Assembly: GCA_018266775.1 (NCBI GenBank) | Contig: JAFDZS010000005.1 | Span: forward strand, 62,257 to 126,256 | DNA: 64,000 nt | Reading direction: 5' to 3' | DNA from: Bacteroidota bacterium | GTDB taxonomy: Bacteria > Bacteroidota > Bacteroidia > Chitinophagales > Chitinophagaceae | Shown: one piece after another, positions 22,739 to 25,970 of the stretch | How the letters are laid out: each line of letters begins with the position of its first letter | Numbering within the stretch: position 1 is the first letter of the stretch | Notes under the pieces: generated by a model | Told to the model about the DNA's origin: nothing | Database searches by the model: none | What the model saw: the letters and a program-made list of their open reading frames with translations, nothing else | Program-made: the position numbers and the translations under genes

Positions 22739-24121
22739 TTATTTATTGGCACCATCATTTTTATTGGGGTTCTGCTGCCCTCTTTGTTGCCCCTGCTGCT
22801 GACCACCCCTGTTTTGTGGCGGCCTTTGCGGGCCCCTGTTTTGTGGCGGGCGGTTACCATTTTGCTGGTTGCCCTTTTGCTGTTGCTGACGTTGCTGATT
22901 TTGTCCGCCTTTATTAGGCTGATTGCCGCGGTTTTGATTATTGCCTCCTTGTCCATTTCCTCTTTGTTCACCACGTTTAGCCTGTTGCTGGTTGCGTTCC
23001 TGTTCTCTTCTTTTGCGGCTGGTTTTTTCCAGGCTTTTTAAACTGATTTGTCCTACCACATCAGCATAAACCGGTTCAATTTCTTTAGGTTTATTGCTTA
23101 CTACTTCTACCGGCTCCAGGTCTGCAGGTCTTATTCCCTGCTGGTTCAACGACTTTATTTTTCTAACCCTTTCCAATGTAAGCGGATACTGTTTCGTACT
23201 GTCTGGCAGCGTATACCACATCAGGTTATTGAAAATATCTTTTTTGGCAAGAAAAGCCCTGCTTTTCTCCATTTCCAGTACATCGCAATTTTCGGGGAAA
23301 TGCTGCAATGCATCCAGGTAAGTATCCAGCTCGTAATTAAGGCAGCATTTTAAACGGCCGCACTGCCCACTGAGTTTGGTTTGATTGATACTTAAATTTT
23401 GATAACGTGCTGCATTGGTGTTTACACTTTTGAAATCGGTTAGCCAGCTGCTGCAGCATAACTCCCTGCCGCAACTGCCAATGCCGCCCACTTTCCCGGC
23501 TTCCTGCCGTGCACCAATCTGGCGCATTTCCACTTTTACTTTAAACTCAGAAGCGTATAATTTAATGAGTTCCCGAAAATCAACGCGGTCATCAGCGATA
23601 TAAAAATAAGTGGCTTTACGGCCATCGGCCTGAATTTCCACTTCAGCCATTTTCATTTCTAAGTTGAGTTGCCGGGAAATTGCCCTGCTGCGGATCAGCA
23701 TTCCAGCTTCACGGGCTTTGCTTTCTTTCATTTTAGAAAGATCCGTTTCGTTAGCCCTGCGCAACACCTTTTTCATGTCGGGGTTCTTTTCATCCACATT
23801 TCTTTTTTTCATCTGCAGGCGAACCAATTCCCCGGTCATATTCACCATACCCACATCATAACCACTAATGCCTTCAACGGCCACCATATCTCCTTTTTCA
23901 AAAAACTGGCTGGAAGTATTCCTGAAAAAATCTTTACGGCTGCCATTATTAAAGCTTACTTCCATAACGCGGCAATTGCTTTCAGGATCGCTGAAAGGTA
24001 AATTGGCCAGCCAGTCGTGAACATTCATCCTGTTACAACCACCGGAGCTGCAACTGCCGTGGTTTTGGCAACCACCCGGCGTACCGTTTTTAGTACCGCA
24101 GGCTCCACTTCCACATCCCAT
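22739..24121 (-). CDS. PSP1-domain (RicT/YaaT-like) protein with low-complexity tail
   Basis: From the ATG at 24121 (MGCGSGACGTKNGTPGGC) the protein is 460 aa; a start at 24181 would add an unlikely leader. A Cys-rich N terminus (about 30 residues) is followed by the PSP1 core (residues about 65-260), with GGIGSCGRELCCSSWL and SGQCGRLKCCLNYELDTY. PSP1 proteins such as Bacillus RicT act in a complex that affects RNA processing and may bind an Fe-S cluster. The last 110 residues are almost only Gln, Asn, Gly, Arg and Pro, a disordered tail likely to bind RNA. Pairing with holB, as here, is common in Bacteroidota and Firmicutes. Confidence 0.87.
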   Translation of the reverse strand: MGCGSGACGTKNGTPGGCQNHGSCSSGGCNRMNVHDWLANLPFSDPESNCRVMEVSFNNGSRKDFFRNTSSQFFEKGDMVAVEGISGYDVGMVNMTGELVRLQMKKRNVDEKNPDMKKVLRRANETDLSKMKESKAREAGMLIRSRAISRQLNLEMKMAEVEIQADGRKATYFYIADDRVDFRELIKLYASEFKVKVEMRQIGARQEAGKVGGIGSCGRELCCSSWLTDFKSVNTNAARYQNLSINQTKLSGQCGRLKCCLNYELDTYLDALQHFPENCDVLEMEKSRAFLAKKDIFNNLMWYTLPDSTKQYPLTLERVRKIKSLNQQGIRPADLEPVEVVSNKPKEIEPVYADVVGQISLKSLEKTSRKRREQERNQQQAKRGEQRGNGQGGNNQNRGNQPNKGGQNQQRQQQQKGNQQNGNRPPQNRGPQRPPQNRGGQQQGQQRGQQNPNKNDGANK

Positions 24122-24165: not shown

Positions 24166-24383
24166 GAGGAAAATGCAGCAACGGATGGGCGCTATGCCGT
24201 GTACAATGGCTCGCTGATATTGTTCGGTCTGGCAGAGATATTTTATGTGTACCTGCCGGGCAAAACGGTATGTCTTTGCCTTATTAACATCCCCGTAAGG
24301 GAAGTGAGTTGAACAATGACTATATGCGAATACAAAATAATCGTACCGGGTAGTAATGCGCCGTCTCTCCGTTCGCTTTCCTC
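24166..24383 (-). ncRNA. Candidate structured RNA between holB and the PSP1 gene
   Basis: About 218 nt without a gene. Nested complementary arms close one long stem: 24166-24172/24377-24383 (7 bp), 24180-24185/24368-24373 (6), 24188-24192/24358-24362 (5), 24197-24204/24343-24349 (7 with a bulge), 24211-24214/24326-24329 (4), 24219-24225/24311-24317 (7). Inside lie three local hairpins: 24231-24257, 24259-24280 and 24290-24302. On the minus strand TAATTTTG (24398 to 24391) matches TAnnTTTG about 6 nt before the first arm. No known RNA class (RNase P, tmRNA, SRP, 6S, common riboswitches) was recognised. It could be an independent RNA or the leader of the PSP1 mRNA. Confidence 0.5.
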
Positions 24384-25629
24384 AATGCACCAAAATTACT
24401 GATTTGTTGCTAATAATGTGATATAACCTGATGGAAAGCGCATGAAAAAGCATTTTGGCGTTGGCATTGCGCTCAATGTAGTAGCTGGCTTTGTCCAATT
24501 CGGTTATTATAGCCTCCTGCTGGCCGATGGCGCAGATTTTATTCAGGCGGGCGGCAAAATCCAGGTCCGCTGAAGTTTGGTTGTTGTATAAACCGGGTAT
24601 GGACCGTACCCTGATAGCCAGCTCCAGCAGGTGAATAAAGTATTTTAAAAATTGTTTTTGTTTTTCCCTACCCAGTTTTGCGGCGTCTTCAATCCATTTT
24701 ACCTGCGCAACGGGCCCGGTTTTTAATACCGCATTCAGCCATTCCCTCAGCATGGCCTGCCAGTCATCATCGGCATGTTGTAATAATTGCAAGGCTTCCC
24801 TGTAATTACCTTCTGCCAATGTTGCTACTTGCGCTGCTTTTTCAATGCTTACCCCTTCCTTGATTTCAAGTGCAGCTTCCACTTCCTGGTTGGTGAGCAG
24901 TGGAATTTTTACCAATTGTGTCCGGGAAAGAATAGTAGGAAGTATGAGTCCTTCATTTTCTGCAACAAAAATAAAGAGGGTGTTGGCTGGCGGCTCTTCA
25001 ATCAGCTTCAATAATTTATTGCCTTCTTTACCCAGAAATTCCGGCAGCCACATGATCAGAATTTTATATTCACTCTCAAAACTTTTTAAACTCATGGTGC
25101 GGTTAATGTCATTGCATTCCGCAGCTGTAATATTGCCCTGTTTATTTTCTGCACCAATAAATTGCAGCCAGTCATATACATTACCATAAGGTTCTTTGGT
25201 AATGAACTCCCGCCACTCTTTAATGAAATCAGCACTGATGGGTTTTTCGCCTGCCTTTTTTGTAATAACAGGATAGGAAAAATGAATATCAGGATGAATC
25301 AGTTCATTTGCTTTTTTGCAGGATGCGCATTCACCACAGGAATCGTGTAAAGTTGATGGTTGATAGTTGATAGTTGATAGTTCGGAGTGCTCAGTTAATT
25401 CAGTGCCCCCAAATAATGATGGGCCTGTTGACTGCTCACTTTGGCTTGTCGTCTTTTTCCCATTCACTTTGTCACATACAATATACTGGGCGAAAGCCAT
25501 TGCCAATTGTAATGCACCGCTCCCTTCTTTGCCTAAAAACAATAGTGCATGGCTCAGCCTGTTCGACTGGATCATGTTTACCAATTGTTCTTTGGTATCT
25601 TTTTGCCCGGTGATGGAGTGAAACTGCAT
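24382..25629 (-). CDS. holB: DNA polymerase III subunit delta' with in-frame repeat insert
   Basis: Clamp-loader subunit of the replicase. The ATG at 25629 (MQFHSITGQKDTKEQLVNMI) starts a 415-aa protein; an upstream start at 25653 was rejected. The AAA+ core shows HALLFLGKEGSGALQLA, the zinc-module cysteines CGECASC, IHPDIHFSYP, MWLPEFLGKEGNKLLKLIEEPPANTLFIFVAEN and LPTILSRTQ (sensor 1). Between QYIVCDKVNG and DSCGEC lies an extra segment of about 40 residues, low in complexity. Its DNA (25346-25384) is a run of AACTATC units like the intergenic repeat at 7465-7501. The insert sits beside the zinc module and keeps the frame. Confidence 0.88.
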   Translation of the reverse strand: MQFHSITGQKDTKEQLVNMIQSNRLSHALLFLGKEGSGALQLAMAFAQYIVCDKVNGKKTTSQSEQSTGPSLFGGTELTEHSELSTINYQPSTLHDSCGECASCKKANELIHPDIHFSYPVITKKAGEKPISADFIKEWREFITKEPYGNVYDWLQFIGAENKQGNITAAECNDINRTMSLKSFESEYKILIMWLPEFLGKEGNKLLKLIEEPPANTLFIFVAENEGLILPTILSRTQLVKIPLLTNQEVEAALEIKEGVSIEKAAQVATLAEGNYREALQLLQHADDDWQAMLREWLNAVLKTGPVAQVKWIEDAAKLGREKQKQFLKYFIHLLELAIRVRSIPGLYNNQTSADLDFAARLNKICAIGQQEAIITELDKASYYIERNANAKMLFHALSIRLYHIISNKSVILVH

Positions 25630-25648: not shown

Positions 25649-25970
25649 TTCAAGCTCCGGCTTGAAGCAAAAAAATATTGAGACGAAGTCTCAAAACCAA
25701 ATCGTCCCCGTCTCTGACGGGGACGATGTACCTGTGAGCTCCGGCTCGCAGCAATATCTACATATCGATCTTTTAAATTTTACTCAAATGCCGGAGCTTG
25801 AGACAGAGTCTCAAAACCAAAACGTCCCCGTCAGAGACGGGGACGATGTACCTGTGAGCTCCGGCTCGCAGCAATATTTACATATCGACCTTTTAAATTT
25901 TACTCAAGTGCCGGAGTTTGAGACACAGTCTCAAAACCAAATCGTCCCCGTCAGAGACGAGGACGATTTT
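25649..25970. repeat. 120-bp tandem repeat array of nested palindromes
   Basis: Units begin at 25680, 25800 and 25920, an exact 120-bp period (about 2.5 copies). Each holds GAGACxxAGTCTC-like, CGTCCCCGTC/GACGGGGACG and GAGCTCCGGCTC palindromes. The array is preceded by TTCAAGCTCCGGCTTGAA (25651-25668), also the heart of the 111-bp array. Within the second palindrome the loop appears as TCT in unit 1 and AGA in unit 2. No gene is seen from 25643 to 25995; open frames across it result from the period being divisible by three. Confidence 0.85.

Follow-up and report, generated by a model that had tools for sequence, protein, structure and literature searches.

Results

We read the spacer between holB and a PSP1-domain (RicT-like) gene, on balance and with some reservation, as the 5' leader of the PSP1 mRNA, which in long-spacer lineages would be built from copies of a dispersed repeat and would likely affect the life time or processing of the message. 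The repeat belongs to an apparently undescribed family, and this family is a more general find than the leader itself. Positions below are those of the window, the whole 64,000-nt stretch of DNA that was analyzed.

The host genome is 5.08 Mb in size, and by comparison of PSP1 its closest named relatives are Ferruginibacter. It contains one full copy of the holB-PSP1 spacer and a gene for RNase Y. The main features of the locus are as follows.

24382 to 25629, minus strand: holB, the upstream gene, encoding the DNA polymerase III delta' subunit (ORF list; Pfam PF13177, E 1.1e-36)
22739 to 24121, minus strand: PSP1-domain (RicT-like) gene, with its ATG at 24121 (Pfam PF04468, E 2.9e-24)
24391 to 24398, minus strand: -7 promoter element TAATTTTG (TAnnTTTG type), within the last holB codons (conservation; consensus of PMC6847099)
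24122 to 24386, minus strand: predicted 5' leader of the PSP1 mRNA, about 265 nt, with its start placed by geometry from the -7 element (spacers of 81 relatives compared by length)

On the minus strand, the TGA stop of holB lies at 24384-24382, and a gap of 260 nt separates the two genes. PSP1 is present in 92 of 93 genomes of the genus. Upstream of holB, a 120-bp unit containing the palindromes CGTCCCCGTC..GACGGGGACG and GAGCTCCGGCTC occurs in 2.4 tandem copies (25678-25967). A heptamer array, (AGTTGAT)4.6, lies within the holB reading frame at 25351-25382, where 7-bp steps could shift the frame.

A conserved -7 element in the last codons of holB

An exact Bacteroidota -7 element on the minus strand had been reported by the first-pass annotation, and we found TAATTTTG at 24398-24391. 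The match alone proves nothing, because the octamer occurs 7 times in the window, compared with 9.4 occurrences expected by chance. Its conservation, which we observed directly, is another matter: among the 81 genus members with a readable spacer, the octamer is identical in 80. In these 80 genomes the codons over the box always read (N)TA-ATT-TTG. The first of them is GTA, TTA, CTA, or ATA, encoding V, L, or I, while ATT and TTG are each found in 80 of 80, TTG being one of six Leu codons. The adjacent Ile codon is not fixed (ATT in 63, ATA in 16, and ATC in 1). Judged by codon usage, the box is under more constraint than the protein sequence requires. Since the octamer is kept in 80 of 81 members and synonymously variable codons are fixed, the promoter is very probably real.

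In Flavobacterium johnsoniae, the -7 consensus is TAnnTTTG, and the G of the box lies at -5 (PMC6847099). From this geometry we infer a start site at about 24386, which precedes the first paired base of the fold described below by 3 nt. One detail of the earlier placement of the box needs correction: the octamer falls within the final codons of holB. No TTTG -33 box was found at the matching position of the window promoter. The box is also retained where the spacer measures only 52 to 115 nt; the most fitting reading is therefore a promoter for PSP1, not the mark of a small RNA gene. The spacer lies directly before PSP1 (PF04468) and behind this promoter, as expected of the leader that had been suggested as one possibility for this region.

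Leader length and repeat content in relatives

Spacer lengths vary widely among the 81 members: 22 have at most 115 nt, 13 have 116 to 210 nt, and 46 have more than 210 nt. The spacer of F. paludis (L172) measures 287 nt. The first-pass annotation had named conservation of the spacer as a check on its candidate, and this was borne out in the 46 long spacers and not in the 35 of at most 210 nt. Since 22 of 81 have no more than 115 nt behind the same promoter, the structured leader is optional. Relatives do have the promoter upstream and a leader before the same gene, PSP1. The leader interior varies between them, without conservation.

Many of the long spacers have two blocks, CAACATCGTTGTGTCACTCACTTGTACGGCATACC and GTACAAGAGTGCGACGCCAATGAAGCTTAATAGTAATTCTGCCGCCCGG, in common, which are diverged, inverted copies of one unit. 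We observed that these spacers are made up of a 70- to 90-nt repeat, typically one inverted (type A) and one direct (type B) copy that pair with each other. An opposite-orientation copy in the same spacer was found in three genomes (L071, L107, and L109). The PSP1 leader of Sediminibacterium and that of another Chitinophagaceae genome carry the unit as well, two of the three matches being weak.

The window retains a trace of one copy.

24308 to 24341, minus strand: remnant of an inverted (type A) repeat, ATTATTTTGTATTCGCATATAGTCATTGTTCAAC (blastn to the G021 spacer; 5' half alignment)

By blastn, 24308-24410 matched the spacer of G021 at 79%. Homology of the 5' half is an observed feature, with alignment z scores of 6 to 12 for five near relatives and 2.1 for a sixth. 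For the 3' half, the scores against near relatives were -1.2 to 1.2, and homology is not recognizable. The unit profile does not detect the window copy, which, judged by these alignments, is decayed.

A dispersed repeat family in Chitinophagaceae

The 16-nt core of the unit, GTACAAGWGWGYGACR, was found in 140 of 299 Chitinophagaceae genomes, representing 67 of 104 genera; the reversed pattern, which served as the control for the core count, gave near zero. Counts per genome ranged from 0 to 1,881 (962 + 919, in one 5.4-Mb genome), and the host genome has 5 copies. High-copy genomes, such as G524, G464, G384 (genus g210), G456, G372 (g198), and others, carry from hundreds to 1,881 exact cores, equally on both strands. 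Beyond Chitinophagaceae, a class-wide sample yielded one match only, at a single site of one genome.

Units are dispersed genome-wide as single and paired copies, with single copies far more numerous than pairs. Of 69 copies classified in two high-copy genomes, where long ORFs take up about 87% of the sequence, 65 were intergenic. Copies within 400 nt of each other in high-copy genomes stood head to head in five of five cases, which is the order seen in PSP1 leaders. Conservation is much stronger in the core than in the flanks, and on the 3' side it continues past the core over tens of bases. We considered a single fixed orientation relative to genes and rejected it, as both orientations occur: in a Ferruginibacter sample, units of both orientations lay mostly between codirectional genes, and in high-copy genomes orientation was near background.

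No conserved RNA structure was predicted within the single unit (0 pairs in 23 aligned units), and neither type of unit has a consistently open frame; for the latter reason, we discarded a hydrophobic reading frame that had seemed to be present. The family thus consists of dispersed, short, noncoding intergenic repeats of a MITE-like kind, with unit ends defined by alignment only. An autonomous element between close unit pairs was also rejected, as three nearby pairs enclosed ordinary genes. So was mobilization by RAYT: a clear unit was present at 2 of 20 RAYT loci and with one RAYT type only. The RAYT loci of this genus (L151-L170; e.g., L155 and L156) adjoin REP-like palindromes of the CGTCCCTACGGGAC type. 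Searches of phage and plasmid collections gave no meaningful match. Separately, an exact 19-mer, GTACAAGTGTGCGACGCAA, was seen in twelve IMG/VR viral contig stretches (L303-L314), and the repeat may therefore travel on phages or prophages. We found no description of the repeat in the part of the literature covered, and Rfam has no entry for it.

Fold of the spacer and probable maintenance of pairing

The long-range fold at 24166-24398 is real. On the minus (holB/PSP1) strand, the minimum free energy was -62.8 kcal/mol (z -2.27), with 2 of 200 dinucleotide shuffles equally good; on the plus strand, it was -74.4 kcal/mol (z -3.14), with 1 of 200. In the minus-strand structure, a branched interior is enclosed by a long terminal stem that pairs 24383-24358 with 24192-24166.

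24358 to 24383, minus strand: 5' arm of the terminal stem, with first bases GAGG at the holB stop (MFE fold; arm-swap test)
24166 to 24192, minus strand: 3' arm of the terminal stem, with last bases TTTCCTC (MFE fold; arm-swap test)

We thus recovered, on the minus strand, the branched multistem fold that the first-pass annotation had described. Two of its further statements also held. The first paired base coincides with the holB stop, the 5' arm starting at 24383 within the TGA, and the region lacks an open frame of note: the window's ORF list contains no ORF of at least 60 aa confined to the spacer.

We assessed the pairing of the arms across relatives. In an arm-swap test with 42 species, arms paired better with their own partners (mean residual, -3.0 kcal/mol), and none of 20,000 permutations was as low. 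The window arms still pair, at -36.5 kcal/mol, though the 3' half has lost recognizable similarity to relatives; their residual of -10.6 ranks second among 42 possible right arms. For the outer stem, aligned over 14 species, two-sided changes numbered 7 by pairs, compared with 3.4 in shuffles (2 of 500), and 11 by cells, compared with 4.8 (0 of 500); the sequences are related to one another, and the structure behind these counts was laid out by eye. Some observations pointed the other way. The near-identical pairs L040/L041 and L047/L048 differ by one-sided arm changes that break pairs. The covariation proposed earlier as a check gave a mixed picture, with a modest excess of two-sided changes but also broken pairs in near relatives. 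Mismatches in the outer stem comprised 30 G-U and 25 A-C; with the two so similar, they give no signal singling out RNA on the transcript strand. Over 42 orthologs, the mean fold z was -2.17 for the transcript strand and -1.62 for the other strand. Together, the arm-swap and covariation results modestly support conserved pairing, and maintenance of the pairing is likely, though unproven.

The main rival to a leader with a role for the mRNA is that the hairpin is a functionless by-product, that is, a decayed inverted repeat pair tolerated in an untranslated region, with complementarity left from its inverted-repeat origin and perhaps corrected by template switching. We consider this unlikely, though it deserves serious weight. 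The dispersal and highly variable copy number of the element fit it, as do the surplus of single copies over pairs, the broken pairs in near relatives, the lack of a G-U excess, and the absence of the structure from a quarter of the genus (22 of 81). However, pairing in the window survives where homology of the 3' arm is no longer recognizable, and both the arm-swap and the shuffle tests favor maintained pairing.

The first-pass annotation had also raised the possibility of a new small RNA, and a stand-alone gene between holB and PSP1 would suit the closed, branched fold with a conserved promoter just ahead of its first paired base. We judge it improbable. A consensus scan, which may miss Bacteroidota terminators, detected no intrinsic terminator-like site on the minus strand, and the leader continues directly into PSP1. 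The structure is absent in at least a quarter of the genus despite the kept promoter, and the interior is not conserved between relatives. Since the relatives' leaders are built of dispersed repeat copies, an mRNA leader is the better reading. The statement that the region matches no known RNA family was confirmed: searches with the window and 10 relatives gave no Rfam family at the gathering score, and two window matches obtained by E value (E 6 to 7) were noise. Very improbable is the idea that the inverted repeat acts as DNA, as a cruciform or a protein or recombinase site, with RNA irrelevant: the window plus strand folds even better, G-U and A-C counts are about equal, and the core is far more conserved than the flanks, but the transcript strand is the better folder in 30 of 42 orthologs, and the stem is bordered by the predicted start site at one end and by the open initiation region at the other.

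Discussion

According to our model of a repeat-built PSP1 leader, transcription would begin at the conserved promoter in the last holB codons. In long-spacer lineages, the leader would have been formed or enlarged by one inverted and one direct repeat unit. The paired units would make a long stem reaching from the 5' end of the transcript to about 45 nt before the start codon, and the A/T-rich initiation region of about 45 nt would stay open. With its 5' end held in a helix, the mRNA would likely change in life time or processing, rather than in ribosome access. The stem could be cut by RNase Y or a double-strand-specific nuclease, or could protect against such cleavage, in a way resembling what has been proposed for ERIC and NEMIS. 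Synthesis of this RNA and its effect on PSP1 are steps that we infer.

An orphan RNA structure noticed in raw sequence is thus most likely a leader assembled from a mobile-like repeat. Following it exposed repeats that Rfam does not contain, that are limited to one bacterial family, and that reach extreme abundance in certain genomes. If selection maintains the pairing, these repeats have been recruited as the mRNA leader structure of an RNA-processing gene. A broader proposal, which we put forward tentatively and hold to be doubtful, is that the GTACAAGWGWGYGACR element is an undescribed, Chitinophagaceae-wide, hyperabundant intergenic class, unexplained by RAYT or other known systems, whose inverted pairs became leaders with selected pairing, as at PSP1.

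The uptake sequences DUS of Neisseria and USS of Haemophilus are present in very many copies on both strands, with some inverted pairs. The repeat described here resembles them in all of these respects. Unlike them, it is intergenic in 65 of 69 classified copies, and its conservation extends tens of bases past the core. With REP/BIME elements and their RAYT, it shares many intergenic copies that are single or in inverted pairs. However, a clear unit lies near only 2 of 20 RAYT loci, the RAYTs read here adjoin a different palindrome of the CGTCCCTACGGGAC type, and the single unit has no conserved hairpin; we therefore do not class it as REP/RAYT.

In Bacillus subtilis, RicT with RNase Y cleaves and stabilizes certain mRNAs (PMC10470536). 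The likeness of our locus to the RicT/YaaT-RNase Y system lies in its genes, namely, a downstream gene of the PSP1/RicT family and an RNase Y gene in the same genome. Since RicT and RNase Y process mRNAs in Bacillus and the RNase Y gene is present here, feedback of RicT and RNase Y on the PSP1 leader is an attractive idea, and the leader as their target is speculation.

Our working analogy for the leader is provided by ERIC of enterobacteria and Correia/NEMIS of Neisseria. These are short, intergenic, nonautonomous repeats that form stem-loops cotranscribed with neighboring genes, and they have been proposed to influence mRNA stability or cleavage by RNase III (PMC2229807). The repeat described here is likewise short and intergenic. 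In contrast to ERIC and NEMIS, its unit of about 70 to 90 nt is by itself nonpalindromic and restricted to Chitinophagaceae, and its hairpins arise from inverted pairs, not from single units.
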